This document shows positions 7,524 through 37,028 of a DNA stretch of 37,320 bases, one piece after another; the first letter of the stretch is position 1, and each line of letters begins with the position of its first letter. The stretch comes from Chloroflexota bacterium. GTDB taxonomy: Bacteria; Chloroflexota; Dehalococcoidia; Lucifugimonadales; VXLM01. Under the pieces are notes generated by a model. It was not told the DNA's origin. It was given only the letters and a program-made list of their open reading frames with translations, and did not search any database. The position numbers were made by a program, and so were the translations under genes. Where the stretch lies: contig JAPOPA010000348.1 of the NCBI GenBank assembly GCA_026713145.1, forward strand, positions 1-37,320, read 5' to 3'.

Positions 7524-10500
7524 GTGAATTCAATACTGGCACAGCGCGCTCCCTCGTTATCCTCGACGGTGAGGGCTTTCTTACTTGTTGCATTCGTTTC
7601 CCTCTTGGTCGTCATGAGCGTCGGCGGCGTTGGGGGACAGACGTCGGACGACCATGGGAATACCCTAAGCACCGCGACGAACCTTCCCCTCGGGTCTTCG
7701 ATAGAAGGCCGCATTAGCCCTGCCGACGATAGGGATGTCTTCAGGCTGGACCTCTCGAGCGCATCAGGGACCACTGACGTATGGATTTACACCACTGGCA
7801 GCCTCGACACCGTTGGGGGTCTGTTTGATCGGAACACCAACAGGCTGGCAGTCAACGATGACAGCTTTATCGTGGGCAGGTTCAACAATTTCCACATTCG
7901 GGCCAATCTCACGCCGGGCGTCTACTACATCCTCGTCGTCAGTTTCCGAAACCTGTTCGTAGGCGATTACACCCTCCACGCACAGGCCGTAGCCGACCCC
8001 GGCAACACCATCGACACCTCAACCCGACTGACTCTTGATTCCCCAACTCCCGGCACCATTAACACAGCAAACAACTCGGACTACTTCAGGTTGGAGTTCA
8101 CGGAGTTCACCAATGTGGACCTCTATGCAAGAAGCACCAATAACCAGCCGATTGACATTACGGTGCTTGACTCTCAGAGATCGGAAGTCTCTGTCAATAT
8201 ATCTCCTCGGCATATCAATACGCCTACGGGAATATTCAGGCACGGCTTTTGGATTCGTGACGATTTTGATCCTGGTACGTACTACGTAAGGATTTTCACT
8301 CGACCTGGGGTAGATTCCTACCCGGTGCCATACACCATCCACACATTCGAGGATGTGCGTTACACCGACTATATAGACGAGTGCGAAGCCAAAACAAGCC
8401 AGTTGAACGACCCTCTGATCCGCGACTCCTTGTACGCGTGCCAGTGGCACCTCGACAACCCCAGCGAGACGGATATCAACGTCGAGCCTGTATGGGAGGA
8501 GGGGATCAAGGGTGAAGGCGTCAATGTCGCAATAGTCGACGACGGGATGTATTACGCCCACGAGGACCTGAAGGACAACGTCGACACATCACGAAATCAC
8601 GACTACACCGACCGGAACGACATCTACACCCCCTTCGAGCACCATGGGACGCATGTAGCCGGCCTCGTCGCTGCGCGAGACAACGACATTGGCGTGCGCG
8701 GAGTGGCCCCTAGGGCGACGGTGTACGGCTATAACTTAATGGTAGACCCGACCTTCTTGAATCGAGCAGACGCGATGGGCCGCAATTACGATGTTACGGC
8801 GGTGTCCAGCAACAGCTGGGGACACCTTGATGGTCCTTGGCTTAGTCGCGCCATGGCGTTCTGGAATCGTGCGATAGAGACTGGAATCAACGACGGTAAC
8901 GGTGGCAAGGGAGTCTTTTACGTCTTTGCGGGTGGCAATGGGCACTTGGACGGAGACAATTCGAACCTTGATGAGTACAACAACCACTATGGCGTGACTT
9001 CGGTCTGCGCCGTGAACGACCACGACACGAGGAGTGGCTACTCCGAGATGGGCGCGAACTTGTGGGTCTGTGCGCCCTCGAACGACCGCTCCGACATTCA
9101 TCAGGGCATCCTCACTACGGAAAACTCAGATCGGTATTTCGAAGAGTTTGGCGGGACGTCCGCGTCAACTCCCGTTATCGCGGGCGTGGCCGCCCTCCTT
9201 AGAGGCGTCAACCCCGACCTTACGTGGCGGGACGTGAAACTGATTCTTGCCGGGTCCGCACGAAAGAACGATGCTCGGAACTCCGGTTGGCTGGGAGGAG
9301 CGAGGAAGTACGGTTCCACGTCCGACGCCGACCGCTATCACTTCAACCATGAGTATGGCTTCGGAGTCGTGGATGCCAAGGCGGCAGTTGATCTCGCCAA
9401 GGAGTGGCGTAATCTCCCGTCATTGGAGACTGCAGGGCTGGAGTCGAACAGGCTCAGCCTGACCATACCCGACGCGCCGCCGATTGGTCCGCCCGCGACT
9501 GTATCGACATCACTCAGACTCAATACCGGCATAGGGTTTGTCGAGTTCGTTGAAGTCAACGTTTCCTTCCGGCACAACTCCTTCCGTGACCTGCAGGTCG
9601 AGCTGGAGTCTCCGTCCGGCAAAGTCTCCCAACTCTCCGTCCCGTTTGATACGCGCACTGACGCCTTTCCCTCGTTCGCCCACGTGCCACTAAACGGCAC
9701 GTTTCGATTAGGTTCTGCAAGACATCTGGGTGAAGACCCAAACGGCGAATGGAAGTTGCATGTGACCGACCATTTCCAAACGGTGAGGGGTTCCCTCGAT
9801 TCGTGGAGCATCGAGGTCTACGGACATGAAAGCCCGCCTGGCCCCCCCCAAATAGACTCGATCACGCCGGGAGTCGGGAGCCTAACCGTTGTATGGAGTG
9901 CTCCCGACGACATCGGAAGTTCACAGGTCAGTTCCTATGACCTGCGCTACATCCAATCGGATGCCGACGAAACAGTGGACTCCAACTGGACCTTCGTTAA
10001 GGATGCGTGGAAGACGGACTCGGCCGGAAGCTTGGAGTATGTCATTTCTTTCCTGGTGGGCGGAGTGCGGTACGACGTTCAAGTCCGCGCCGTCAATCAA
10101 GCCGGAGCCGGACCTTGGTCGGACAGTGTCACTGGAACGCCGGTCCAGGTGACGTCGGGCGAGTGCGGGACTGCGGGCGCAGTGGCCGATCCTGAGAACA
10201 ACGCCGGTCTAGTGTCCGACTGCAACGCGCTCCTGGCGGCACAGAGTGCTCTGGCAGGTTCCGCAACATTGAACTGGTCTGCCGGCACTCCCATTGCGGA
10301 CTGGGAGGGAGTGACAGTGGGTGGGACACCGCAACGTGTTACCGAATTGAGCCTTTTCGACAGCGAGTTGACAGGAGCCTTACCCCTAGAGCTGGGAAGG
10401 ATCTCCAACCTGAAGCGACTGGTGCTATCCAGGAACCGACTGACGGGACAGGTACCTGCATGGATTGGCGACCTTGTCGAGCTGGAAGAACTCTCCCTCT

Positions 10501-12917
10501 GGGGGAACCAGTTGTCGGGGACGATACCTGCGTCGCTTGGCGGAATCAGCAACCTGGAGGAACTCTACCTGTCTCAAAACCGGTTGACCGGCCCAATACC
10601 GGCGTCGTTGGGCGACCTCAGCAACCTAAGGGAACTGTCACTTTGGCGAAATGAATTGACAGGGTCGTTGCCCATCGAATTGGGCAATCTCACCAAGCTT
10701 CAGCGAATGGTCCTTTCACGGAACCAATTGACTGGGACACTGCCGGTGTGGCTCGGTAACCTCACCGGCCTGGAGGCGCTATCGCTCTGGGGAAACGACT
10801 TCAGCGGTGCAATACCCGACGAGATTGGCGATCTCGGCAACTTGAAAGAGCTATATCTCGCCCAAAACAACCTGAGCGGCCCCATACCGAGTTCAATTGG
10901 CAATCTTGCCAGCCTGGAAGTGCTCTCGCTCTGGCGGAATCTCTTGACTGGGCCAATTCCGCCTGAACTCGGAAGCCTCACGAACCTTGAACAGTTGCTG
11001 CTCAGGGAGAATCTGTTGACGGGGTCGATACCCCTCTCATTAGGAAATCTCACGAATCTCCGGCAGCTGACCCTCCGGCAGAACCAGTTGGAAGGGTGCG
11101 TACCTGACGGACTGCGAGACGTGGAAGGCAATGACTTTGATGAACTCGCTTTGCCCTTCTGCGATGTCCTGCTCAGTGGTCTCGTAGTAACGCCGGGAAC
11201 GCTGGTCCAGTCGTTCGATCCCTATCACACCGAGTACACGGCGTTGTCGAGCGCGTCGCGGGTGACGGTGACTCCCGAAAACGAATACAACGCCACAGTG
11301 ATGTTCCTTGACCGGAATAATCGTGAAATCGCGGATGCCGATGCCTCGCTGGAAGGCCACCAAGTCGACCTCAACAGAGGGATCACCGTCATCAGAATCA
11401 AAGTTATGTCCCACGACGGCCTGGCCACCTTGACCTACTCCGTGGCTGTGAGCCGCGTGCCCAGCGCTCCCGCAGTGAACGATGTTACTTCAGGTAGCCG
11501 TGAACTAACGGTCTCGTGGACTCCGCCTGCCGAGACCGGAGGGTCGGATATCACCGCATATGACATTCGCTACATTCGGACTATTGATGACGAAACGGTG
11601 GAGTCCAACTGGGACGTGGTGGAAGACGTGTGGACTGCCACCGCCGGGGGTGCCTTTGAGTCTACGATTACCGGCCTGACAGGCAGCACACAATATGACG
11701 TTCAGGCACGAGCGGTCAGCCAAATAGGGTCGGGTATTTGGTCGGACACCGTAACAGAGTCAACGGCGGCCAGCGTCTGCGTCTCCGGTGGTGCGGTCGC
11801 GGACTCGACCAACCCTGACCTGATCGCCGACTGCGAGGCGCTGCTTGAAGCGAAGAACGTGCTGGCGGGGAACGGCTCGCTCGATTGGGATCCGTCGACT
11901 CCCATCGCGGCGTGGCAGGGCATCACCCTCCGCGGAACGCCGGCACGGGTGGCATGGCTGGACATTCGGGGAGGGGGACTGGACGGTTCGATCCCGGACG
12001 AATTGGGTCTGCTACAGGGCCTCACTTACATAAACCTTCGTAACAACAGCCTTGATGGTTCCATCCCATCCGAGTTGGGCAAGCTGACCGACCTCAGAAT
12101 CTTGGGACTGAACAACAATCAACTGAGTGGACGAATTCCGGACCTAAGCCGGTTGACCAAGTTGGAGCAACTGTACCTCTCAAATAACGACCTCACCGGC
12201 AGTTTGCCGGACTGGATGGGTACGTTGGAGAACGTGCGGGAACTCTGGCTTTGGGGCAATGAGTTTGAAGGGCCGATCCCGGACCTAAGGGGCATGACCT
12301 CTCTTGTTCGACTAAAGCTGCAGAGCAACAACCTGACGGGAGGCGTGCCGGGATGGTTTGGCGATATGGACAGTCTTGAGTACCTCTATCTTCACAAGAA
12401 TCCACTGGGCGGGACAATTCCACCGGAGTTGGGGGGTATGAGCAATCTTCGGTACCTGTGGCTCAATACGAATGAGTTGACCGGAGGTATACCGTCGGAG
12501 TTGAGTCAACTCTCCCGTCTCTGGGACTTGAACCTGCACTCTAATAGACTGAGTGGGTCGATCCCTCCTGAATTGGGTGGGATGCAAGGCCTGACGCATC
12601 TTCGACTCCACCGCAACCAACTAAGCGGCGGGATTCCACCCGAATTGGGCGAGTTGGAAAGTTTGAAGTTCCTTTGGCTGCATGGGAATTTGCTGGGCGG
12701 GTCAATTCCTGCCGAGTTGGGAAGGCTGACGAATCTGGAGAGGCTCTGGCTTAGGGAGAACAGGCTGACAGGGGCGATACCGGCGGAGCTTGACGAACTC
12801 AGCAAACTGACCCAGTGGCGGCTTGCTCGAAACCGGTTGGAAGGGTGCGTCCCGCAGGGTTTGAGTGAGGTGCCGGACAATGACCTTGCCGAGCTCGGTC
12901 TGAATGTCTGCCCCTAG
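7524..12917 (+). CDS. Giant secreted S8 subtilisin-like protease with pre-peptidase-like domains, P/homoB domain, FN3, cadherin-like beta-sandwich and two plant-type LRR blocks
   Basis: 1797 aa single ORF; triad motifs VAIVDDGM (D), HHGTHVAG (H), FGGTSASTPVIAG (S), oxyanion SSNSWG; many NxLTGxIPxxLGxLxxLxxLxL repeats; N-terminal signal-like segment. Confidence 0.93.
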   Translation: MNSILAQRAPSLSSTVRAFLLVAFVSLLVVMSVGGVGGQTSDDHGNTLSTATNLPLGSSIEGRISPADDRDVFRLDLSSASGTTDVWIYTTGSLDTVGGLFDRNTNRLAVNDDSFIVGRFNNFHIRANLTPGVYYILVVSFRNLFVGDYTLHAQAVADPGNTIDTSTRLTLDSPTPGTINTANNSDYFRLEFTEFTNVDLYARSTNNQPIDITVLDSQRSEVSVNISPRHINTPTGIFRHGFWIRDDFDPGTYYVRIFTRPGVDSYPVPYTIHTFEDVRYTDYIDECEAKTSQLNDPLIRDSLYACQWHLDNPSETDINVEPVWEEGIKGEGVNVAIVDDGMYYAHEDLKDNVDTSRNHDYTDRNDIYTPFEHHGTHVAGLVAARDNDIGVRGVAPRATVYGYNLMVDPTFLNRADAMGRNYDVTAVSSNSWGHLDGPWLSRAMAFWNRAIETGINDGNGGKGVFYVFAGGNGHLDGDNSNLDEYNNHYGVTSVCAVNDHDTRSGYSEMGANLWVCAPSNDRSDIHQGILTTENSDRYFEEFGGTSASTPVIAGVAALLRGVNPDLTWRDVKLILAGSARKNDARNSGWLGGARKYGSTSDADRYHFNHEYGFGVVDAKAAVDLAKEWRNLPSLETAGLESNRLSLTIPDAPPIGPPATVSTSLRLNTGIGFVEFVEVNVSFRHNSFRDLQVELESPSGKVSQLSVPFDTRTDAFPSFAHVPLNGTFRLGSARHLGEDPNGEWKLHVTDHFQTVRGSLDSWSIEVYGHESPPGPPQIDSITPGVGSLTVVWSAPDDIGSSQVSSYDLRYIQSDADETVDSNWTFVKDAWKTDSAGSLEYVISFLVGGVRYDVQVRAVNQAGAGPWSDSVTGTPVQVTSGECGTAGAVADPENNAGLVSDCNALLAAQSALAGSATLNWSAGTPIADWEGVTVGGTPQRVTELSLFDSELTGALPLELGRISNLKRLVLSRNRLTGQVPAWIGDLVELEELSLWGNQLSGTIPASLGGISNLEELYLSQNRLTGPIPASLGDLSNLRELSLWRNELTGSLPIELGNLTKLQRMVLSRNQLTGTLPVWLGNLTGLEALSLWGNDFSGAIPDEIGDLGNLKELYLAQNNLSGPIPSSIGNLASLEVLSLWRNLLTGPIPPELGSLTNLEQLLLRENLLTGSIPLSLGNLTNLRQLTLRQNQLEGCVPDGLRDVEGNDFDELALPFCDVLLSGLVVTPGTLVQSFDPYHTEYTALSSASRVTVTPENEYNATVMFLDRNNREIADADASLEGHQVDLNRGITVIRIKVMSHDGLATLTYSVAVSRVPSAPAVNDVTSGSRELTVSWTPPAETGGSDITAYDIRYIRTIDDETVESNWDVVEDVWTATAGGAFESTITGLTGSTQYDVQARAVSQIGSGIWSDTVTESTAASVCVSGGAVADSTNPDLIADCEALLEAKNVLAGNGSLDWDPSTPIAAWQGITLRGTPARVAWLDIRGGGLDGSIPDELGLLQGLTYINLRNNSLDGSIPSELGKLTDLRILGLNNNQLSGRIPDLSRLTKLEQLYLSNNDLTGSLPDWMGTLENVRELWLWGNEFEGPIPDLRGMTSLVRLKLQSNNLTGGVPGWFGDMDSLEYLYLHKNPLGGTIPPELGGMSNLRYLWLNTNELTGGIPSELSQLSRLWDLNLHSNRLSGSIPPELGGMQGLTHLRLHRNQLSGGIPPELGELESLKFLWLHGNLLGGSIPAELGRLTNLERLWLRENRLTGAIPAELDELSKLTQWRLARNRLEGCVPQGLSEVPDNDLAELGLNVCP

Positions 12918-32525: not shown

Positions 32526-33749
32526 CTACGAAGGATCAAATAGCCGCACCGTCTGAACTTGGGGAGTGCCGTAGCGTTCAGTCACGTAGGCGATGTGGCT
32601 CCCGTCGGGCGACCAGACAATGGGGCCTTGATTCCCATCGAGGTTTCGGGCCTGGGCATTGGTGAGATTCCTCAAATCTTCCCCTTCAAACTGCATCACA
32701 TAGATGTCCGCGCCCACCACGGTGTCTTGGGTAGGGAAGTTCGGACGACCCTCAAAGGCGATCCACTCGCCGTCCGGAGACCAGGATGGTCTGGAGTCCT
32801 GCAAGCTGGTTCTCTGGCTGCGGTTGAATACACCGCCTCCGTCCGGGTCCATGATGTAGATTTCGAAGTCGACGGTGTTGCCCGCCGTGGCAAAGTCCCG
32901 TCTTGCGGCTTCAGAAAGCTCCCCACCGAATTCGGACTTTGGGCGGTTCGAGGAGAAGGCAATATAGCGTCCATCGGGCGACCAGGCCGGGAAGACGTCT
33001 GCGTCTTGGTTGTCCGTGAGTCGGGTGAGGTTTGAGCCGTCAGCGTTTATGACGTAGATCTCGTGGTCTCCATCCTCTCGCGACTGAAATGCAAGCCGTT
33101 GGCTGTCGGGCGACCATGTGGGATTGCCGTCGAAGTAGAAGTTGAAAGTGAGTCTGGTTTGGTCGCTTCCGTCGGCGTTCATCACATACAGTTCCGGTCG
33201 TGGCGCGGCTCCGGGGAATTCCGGCGCGCCGTCAAAGAACGGTTCCGGGGTGGGCTGAAGCTGAGGAGGCGGATCGGCGTCGCGATTCGACGTGAAGGCA
33301 ATTTTCGTCCCGTCCGGCGACCAGATGGGACGAGAGTACATTTGGGCTGGGTAGACGGTAAGGCTGGAGAGGCCGGTCCCGTCAGGCTTTACGCGGTGAA
33401 TGTCGGTCCTGCCCTGCGTCCGGCTGAGGAAGGCAATCCACTCACCGTCGGGCGACCATGAGGGTTCCATGTCCTTGGCTTCACGGTTTGTGAGGTTCAC
33501 TCGCCCGCTGCCATCGGCGTTCATCACGTAGATGTCCATGTTGCCCGTTTCGTCCGAAGAGAAGGAGACCCTGGCGCTGTCCGCCGACCACGATGGGGCG
33601 CTGTCGCCCAACGCATCGGGACCTCTGTTCAGCGCAACGCCGGCGACGATCCAACCTCCGACAGTCGTGATGGCGATGATGCCTACAATGACCCCCACGA
33701 CTATCAGCCCCCGGTCGCGGCGTCCCTTTAGCTTTTGCGGCTTCTGCAT
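32526..33749 (-). CDS. Membrane-anchored TolB-like WD40/PD40 beta-propeller protein
   Basis: Repeats DIYVMNADGS..LT..DxxPSWSPDGxxIAFxS; N-terminal TM LIVVGVIVGIIAITTVGGWIVAGVAL after MQKPQKLKGRR. Confidence 0.9.
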   Translation of the reverse strand: MQKPQKLKGRRDRGLIVVGVIVGIIAITTVGGWIVAGVALNRGPDALGDSAPSWSADSARVSFSSDETGNMDIYVMNADGSGRVNLTNREAKDMEPSWSPDGEWIAFLSRTQGRTDIHRVKPDGTGLSSLTVYPAQMYSRPIWSPDGTKIAFTSNRDADPPPQLQPTPEPFFDGAPEFPGAAPRPELYVMNADGSDQTRLTFNFYFDGNPTWSPDSQRLAFQSREDGDHEIYVINADGSNLTRLTDNQDADVFPAWSPDGRYIAFSSNRPKSEFGGELSEAARRDFATAGNTVDFEIYIMDPDGGGVFNRSQRTSLQDSRPSWSPDGEWIAFEGRPNFPTQDTVVGADIYVMQFEGEDLRNLTNAQARNLDGNQGPIVWSPDGSHIAYVTERYGTPQVQTVRLFDPS

Positions 33750-34115
33750 GCTTCCTCCCTTACACGAAACGCGACCACGCTCCAACTCCAAGCATACCAC
33801 CAACGTAACCCAGTCGCATCAGCACCGCTTCCGAGCGCAGAAGCTGGGGCACACTGGGTGAGCCGCTGCGACGGTTTGAGAAAGTGAGACGGTTTGAGAG
33901 TCCTGCTCGCTCGCCTTATTCTGGTCGTTGTTCTCATTTTGTGTCGGTCGGTCTTGCCTATTTATAAGGGGCGTTTGAAGCTATTTCTGCGAGGCTCATC
34001 CTGCGGATGGCGTACTGGCGATACGGTTTGAGAGAGAAACCGAGATGCCAGAATTTCTGCGCCTTTTTTTTCTCAATTCGTTTCGCACGGATTCGTGCTC
34101 AATTCGCGGCTGCAC

Positions 34116-35671: not shown

Positions 35672-35780
35672 ATTACTGTCCGCGTCGAGATCGAGTATTG
35701 TATACGGACCGCATCCTGAGCCCCACACCGGCATCGAATCCTGCTTCCCTGCATCGAATTAACTGAAGGAGAATTTGTAC

Positions 35781-37028
35781 ATGAACCTTAGTCCACCTCA
35801 TACCCTGCTCGCCGGACTCACCGTCGCTACGCTCGTGGTCGTGGCCGCGGCGTGCGGCTCCCAAGAGTCATCCGAACCGGCTCCGGAGGAAGGTACTGCC
35901 GTTGTGCAGCCTGCCTCCTCGCCTCAACCGGAGCCAACTTCGTCCCCGGAGCCCGAGCCGTCCCCCGAACCGACCGAAGCGCCGGTGGCCTCATCCGAGA
36001 CTCAAGCCGAAGAGGATGACCCTTGGGGAGACCGCTACGATCCCTTCAAGGTGAGTTCGGTAGACGTTGACGGCACGCGCTACGAGGTTATGAACATCCT
36101 TCCCAAGGACGCCATTCGAGCGATATTCGAACCAAACTTCTTCAGGGCGGATGAGGCCAGGAATCAGTACCGTGAAACCGATCTGGTAATTGGAGTTTCC
36201 GTAGGTGGCGAACACCGGGCATACAACGTGGCCTACCTCAGCGGGCACGAGATCGTCAACGACGTAGTTGGAGGCAAGCCGATTGCGGTCACATGGTGAC
36301 CGCTTTGCTTCACGGCCATAGTCTATGGCCGAGAACTTGAAGAAGAGACGGTTAACTTCGGCGTGTCAGGCCGGCTGATAATGAACGCTCTCGTGATGTA
36401 CGACAGGGAGACCAATTCGCTGTGGAGTCAATTTCTTGGCAAGGCCATCCACGGGCAGTGCAAGGGCACGGAGTTGGAGATCGTTCCCTCTCAACTCACC
36501 AACTATGGGACCTGGACCAAGGCTCACCCTGACACCAAGGTGCTCGACACTCACACGAGCTACCCGATTGACGACCATTACCTCACCTACTATCGGGAGC
36601 AAAAGGCAGGCATCCTCGGCGAAAGGAACCCCGACGAGCGACTCCGGATAAAGGACATCATCCTCGGAGTGACGGGCGATCAGGGCCAGATAGCCTACAA
36701 CTATCTCGACCTAATAGAGGCGGAGGTAATAAACCACGAGTTCGAAGGGACGCCAATCGTCGCCGCAGTGGACCGAGAGGGCGGTGGCACCGCGATATTC
36801 CGGCGCACGGTTGACGGTCAGGTACTGGAATTCGAGTCGCTCGACGGAACCACCATGACCGATACCGAGTCGAGTTCCGTATGGGACAAAGCCTCAGGCC
36901 TTGCGGTTAGCGGCTCGATGAAAGGGACTCAACTCGAAACCCACCCGTTCATCCTATCCTTCTGGTTCGCGTGGACGGACTTCTACCCGGACACCGACCT
37001 CTACGAACCTGTGCCGATGGAGGGTTAG
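35781..37028 (+). CDS. Candidate selenoprotein: DUF3179-like lipoprotein with in-frame UGA (Sec173) replacing the first Cys of CPLC
   Basis: ATG 35781 with AAGGAG upstream; lipobox VVAAACGS; HEIVNDVVGGKPIAVTW-[TGA 36297..36299]-PLCFTAIVYGRELEEETVNFGVSGRLIMNALVMYDRETNSLWSQF. Same frame before and after, no other stop until TAG 37026..37028. Confidence 0.85.
36313..36331 (+). promoter_or_regulatory. Candidate bacterial SECIS (bSECIS) stem-loop
   Basis: CGGCCATA-GTC-TATGGCCG: perfect 8-bp stem, loop begins with G, loop starts 22 nt after the last base of the in-frame TGA. Confidence 0.75.

Follow-up and report, generated by a model that had tools for sequence, protein, structure and literature searches.

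The gene at 35781-37028 of the analysed window, a stretch of 37,320 nucleotides from the draft genome of a marine-type Chloroflexota bacterium, almost certainly encodes a DUF3179 selenoprotein in which UGA codon 173 is decoded as selenocysteine. The initial annotation had already proposed selenocysteine at residue 173, and the comparative evidence now supports it strongly, because the host possesses the selenocysteine machinery, Cys and TGA alternate at the codon among relatives, a SECIS hairpin covaries downstream of it and paralogues point the same way.

The gene and its reading frame

The open reading frames 35775-36299 and 36363-37028 lie in one frame and are separated solely by the TGA at 36297-36299; on reading the frame, both the coordinates and the description given in the initial annotation proved right. 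From the ATG at 35781 to the TAG at 37028 there are 415 codons, all open except TGA codon 173, in agreement with the 415-residue product with U at 173 that had been put forward. The ATG at 35781 is the best start, with AAGGAG located nine bases ahead of it. The features of the gene are as follows:

35766-35771, plus strand: Shine-Dalgarno-like AAGGAG, 9 nt upstream of the ATG, read from the sequence
35781-37028, plus strand: complete coding sequence of the predicted DUF3179 selenoprotein, 415 residues with Sec at 173; start ATG 35781, stop TAG 37026-37028
35781-35860, plus strand: putative signal peptide or lipoprotein signal (MNLSPPHTLLAGLTVATLVVVAAAC), read by eye from the translation; imperfect lipobox
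36105-36995, plus strand: DUF3179 domain (PF11376), full length and spanning the TGA, from the Pfam match
36297-36299, plus strand: TGA predicted to be decoded as selenocysteine, residue 173, from frame reading, alignment of relatives and hairpin covariation
36297-36308, plus strand: Sec-Pro-Leu-Cys (UxxC) motif, U-P-L-C at 173-176, from the translation and the alignment of relatives

Pfam model PF11376 matched residues 109-405 over its entire length (positions 1-292 of 292, E=2.5e-81) and continuously through the TGA, with 273.7 bits against a curated score of 27. Alignment of relatives bore out the proposal that the TGA stands in place of the first, conserved Cys in the CPLC motif of DUF3179. 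Export of the product is suggested by its N-terminal hydrophobic stretch. By eye, the lipobox region reads VVVAAAC with Ala at -3, an imperfect lipobox with which a lipoprotein is plausible.

Elsewhere in the window, 7524-12917 encodes a protein of 1797 residues that combines a subtilase and a P-domain with fibronectin type III domains and numerous leucine-rich repeats. Near the locus, a PD40 beta-propeller gene (32526-33803, minus strand) corresponds to a pair of neighbouring copies in the congener G003 (L066 2054-4835).

Selenocysteine machinery and DUF3179 paralogues of the host

The source genome is a draft of 3.46 Mb in 398 contigs with 92% completeness (labelled G000; the window is its contig C235), and we infer that it belongs to SAR202-type Dehalococcoidia. 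Bacterial selenoproteins require selA, selB, selC (tRNA-Sec) and selD, and the initial annotation had named a search for selA, selB, selD and tRNA-Sec(UCA) in the host as a check. All four were found: a tRNA-Sec with anticodon UCA, SelA (444 bits), SelB (338 bits) and SelD (387 bits).

Five DUF3179 genes are present in this genome, and four of them have one TGA at the same column, within the motif W*PLC in three cases and W*TLC in one, while the fifth reads YCTLC. As a mechanical ORF caller splits such genes in two, four of the five DUF3179 proteins of this genome would be mis-annotated. According to a review, selenoprotein-rich bacteria are mainly anaerobes (PMC13188914), and cultured SAR202 bacteria are described as aerobic (PMC10444878), which makes it notable that one SAR202-type genome should have several selenoproteins that are paralogues.

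In three genomes (G000:C250, G003:C113 and G209:C1) the distance between selB and a DUF3179 gene is about 5-7 kb; the latter has the Sec form in two of them and the Cys form in Lucifugimonas (G209). The selD gene of the host (L056, G000:C319:2542-3462, minus strand) has an in-frame TGA of its own near the start (CAG*AGK), which fits a Sec-containing SelD; the position is presumably the Sec site of the known Sec form of that enzyme.

Cys and TGA alternate at one codon

The initial annotation had pointed to Cys/TGA alternation at this column as a further check, and this is what the relatives exhibit. Among 139 distinct aligned sites, 101 were TGA and 28 TGC or TGT; TAA and TAG did not occur, one site each was Ser and Arg, and the remaining eight were alignments onto the second internal repeat. 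Once weak matches had been removed, 128 aligned genes were left, 101 with TGA and 27 with Cys, and again never TAA or TAG. The ratio of TGA to Cys is no unbiased census, since some of the loci were retrieved by searching with the Sec protein. TGA at exactly the same codon in 101 relatives, and TAA or TAG in none, is far beyond chance. The relatives with Ser and Arg at the Sec column were counted against the selenocysteine explanation. We note that the Sec/Cys alternation marks a functional residue of the uncharacterised DUF3179 domain.

On the tree, the U/C state needs eight changes, compared with about 25 when labels are shuffled. Across 151 sampled Chloroflexota genomes, most of the DUF3179 genes from outside the order are Cys forms, and TGA forms recur. 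All eight genomes from outside the order that have TGA forms also have SelB, and none of the six DUF3179 genomes without SelB had a TGA form, the site itself having been read in fetched loci. G034 and G044, two of the 60 nearest relatives, have no SelB above the cut-off, and their DUF3179 genes are of the Cys and Ser forms. G002, G029 and G049 of the same set have TGA forms without SelB above the cut-off; these assemblies are fragmented or incomplete, which is probably why SelB is missing.

The residue preceding Sec (36294-36296 and its counterparts in relatives) is Trp in 82 of the 101 TGA genes. In the Cys genes it is mainly Tyr or Phe, with Trp in 2 of 27; clade explains part of this preference.

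A covarying hairpin follows the TGA

36313-36331, plus strand: predicted SECIS hairpin; stem 36313-36319 with 36325-36331, loop 36320-36324 (AGTCT)

The hairpin begins 14 nt past the TGA and has seven base pairs, formed by positions +14 to +20 and +26 to +32 after the TGA, and a loop of 5 nt. In this register 89.1% of cells were paired in the TGA genes (all 101) versus 44.4% in the Cys genes, and registers slid along the TGA genes gave 33-48%. Twelve TGA relatives have a shifted or different hairpin. All 101 TGA genes have G at loop position +22 (G36321), but so do 25 of 27 Cys genes, and its invariance is therefore partly a matter of coding constraint.

Covariation was assessed with 39 diverse TGA sequences. 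Six of the seven stem pairs showed changes on both sides (34 cells versus 7.3 in shuffles) and the covariation score was 0.403 versus 0.103 in shuffles, a value reached by none of 500 shuffles; as the set omits eight sequences seen to use a shifted hairpin, the statistic is to some extent selected and speaks for the main register alone. Folding energies relative to codon-preserving shuffles gave a mean z of -1.34 for TGA genes and -0.35 for Cys genes (p=3e-4, uncorrected for relatedness). A SECIS covariance model run on the host genome found exactly the four TGA genes with E<1e-11 and the next match at about 0.01; the four had been in its training set, and so the absence of further matches is the informative part. 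Those of the weaker matches that we read (L195, L198, L199 and L200, E 0.01-0.17) were dismissed as chance because their coding context was unconvincing. The Rfam scan of the window gave no matches.

A tandem pair of DUF3179 genes in a relative (L111 174-1404, plus strand) provides a natural before-and-after of the Sec/Cys change: the TGA copy has a perfect hairpin and the TGT copy has none. Taken together, the comparative data show a SECIS hairpin within the coding sequence that would direct selenocysteine insertion. UGA codon 173 would be read as selenocysteine via SelB and Sec-tRNA(UCA), steered by this hairpin.

Decay, error, reassignment and split genes

The source is a draft of 398 contigs, and the TGA might be a nonsense mutation in a pseudogene or a misread TGC or TGT. 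This is extremely improbable, since the same codon recurs in four paralogues and 101 relatives, the hairpin covaries and the part after the TGA is, judging from substitution rates against the orthologue of the congener G003, under purifying selection (dN/dS about 0.15; dS about 1.1, 1.09). The same pattern is found in the closed genome of Candidatus Lucifugimonas marina JH1073, a cultured SAR202 isolate (PMC10444878), which encodes SelB and DUF3179 genes with in-frame TGA; three of these were read with TGA solely at the Sec site. Since a cultured strain also has such genes, the selenocysteine claim is directly testable. A fourth DUF3179 gene of this strain (L274, G209:C1:2387562-2388005) has one TGA in the Sec position (W*PIC) and another about ten codons upstream, at the second Gly of the GG of relatives (VG*LPVLVSW*PIC), the latter being a nonsense mutation or something else.

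The decoding of in-frame TGA in several genes could also be explained by reassignment of TGA, for instance to Trp, or by random readthrough. We give this practically no credence, because other relatives have Cys and never Trp in this column, a SECIS-type hairpin and complete selenocysteine machinery are present, and other genes of the window end in TGA. Of the 14 window genes checked, 4 terminate with TGA, so UGA is not globally reassigned, as the initial annotation had held. It is just as hard to believe that ORFs 35775-36299 and 36363-37028 are genes in their own right, which is the division a gene caller would make at this locus. Mechanical ORF lists do yield two ORFs, but a single full-length Pfam domain covers both, the second 'start' was confirmed to lie within the conserved FGVSG motif, and the Cys relatives are single uninterrupted genes.

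Domain architecture and proposed function

36156-36494, plus strand: repeat 1 of the internal duplication, bearing U-P-L-C, from hhalign of repeat 1 versus repeat 2 and the AF2 model
36627-36959, plus strand: repeat 2 of the internal duplication, without UxxC, from hhalign of repeat 1 versus repeat 2

As judged by profile comparison, the DUF3179 domain is an internal duplication (hhalign probability 99.9 for repeat 1 versus repeat 2), and in the sequences read the U/CxxC motif is confined to repeat 1. AF2 models reached a pLDDT of 94.8 for the whole domain and 93.8 for repeat 1 alone. In Foldseek searches of the PDB, the top matches of both models were mainly Rieske ferredoxins and NirD-type proteins with probabilities of about 0.9-1.0 and E values of 0.01-1; those of repeat 1 had TM values of about 0.4-0.56 over 80-91 columns. 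Profile similarity to the Rieske proteins of relatives was not significant in hhalign (probability 12% for the whole domain, 1% for repeat 1 and 33% for repeat 2). The Rieske ligand set C-x-H...C-x-x-H is absent: there is no C-x-H upstream of UPLC, and the motif is U/C-x-x-C/T. In view of these profiles, the absent ligands and the Foldseek E values, we present the Rieske likeness as a fold lead and not as membership. An equivalence of UPLC with the Rieske CPxH loop was considered and rejected, as hhalign gave nothing for repeat 1 and another register for repeat 2. PDB chains gave no convincing match by sequence, and none of the four family members tried had a model in NCBIfam.

The protein may be an extracytoplasmic oxidoreductase that is probably exported and perhaps lipid-anchored, with Sec173 probably serving as the nucleophilic redox residue and Cys176 as the resolving thiol. 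For the redox-nucleophile role of Sec173 we see about an even chance. In the aligned relatives residue 173 is, with few exceptions, Sec or Cys, and the +3 residue (176), mostly Cys, varies to Thr in two Gemmatimonadota Cys forms and to Arg in one TGA form, which favours a nucleophile with a resolving Cys over a two-thiolate metal site. The UxxC motif, still that of a selenoprotein, could instead mainly bind a metal or cluster in a Rieske-like fold. The resemblance of the models to Rieske and NirD-type proteins is consistent with this, and the invariant N, D, D and W and the near-invariant E of the DUF3179 alignment could supply ligands. We nevertheless consider a metal site rather unlikely, given the Foldseek E values of just 0.01-1, the hhalign comparisons at 1-33%, the missing Rieske ligands and a +3 residue that can be Thr or Arg. 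Returning to the nucleophile, we tentatively offer a broader proposal that we likewise hold to be doubtful: DUF3179 might derive from the Rieske fold by duplication and loss of the [2Fe-2S] ligands and bear a Sec/Cys nucleophile site, forming an extracytoplasmic selenoenzyme family that has expanded to several paralogues in SAR202-type Chloroflexota.

Comparison with known systems

The initial annotation had presented the gene as a candidate new selenoprotein, which is wrong at the family level. DUF3179 (pfam11376, UxxC/T) is tabulated among the known prokaryotic selenoprotein families in two reviews (PMC9312934, PMC13188914), and both cite Zhang & Gladyshev 2007 (NAR 35:4952), on the Olavius algarvensis symbiont, for it. 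The family is defined by Sec in the UxxC/T motif of a PF11376 protein, which corresponds to U-P-L-C at 173-176 here. Hence the gene is a well-supported added member of a listed family and not a new family. Apparently new are the multi-paralogue expansion of DUF3179 in SAR202-type Chloroflexota, the explicit SECIS and the fold lead, two tandem repeats that are each weakly Rieske-like but lack the Rieske cluster ligands; a limited literature search found no account of the SAR202 DUF3179 expansion or the fold lead, and nothing on SAR202 together with selenoproteins, though two papers mention both SAR202 and selenocysteine.

The Sec-DUF3179 family of the reviews is likewise PF11376 with Sec first in UxxC, a likeness drawn through Pfam and the motif; it differs from the genes described here, which belong to SAR202-type Chloroflexota and number four Sec paralogues and one Cys paralogue in the host genome. 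The predicted repeat fold resembles that of Rieske/ISP-fold ferredoxins (such as PDB 2qpz, 5cxm and 3c0d), but DUF3179 has neither their ligand motif nor significant profile similarity to them, and the relation is a possible fold resemblance only. In other Chloroflexota and in Gemmatimonadota, the Cys-type DUF3179 proteins lack a SECIS-type hairpin in register, and share with the selenoprotein the same domain, with Cys in place of Sec in a CPLC or CPLT motif at the site.
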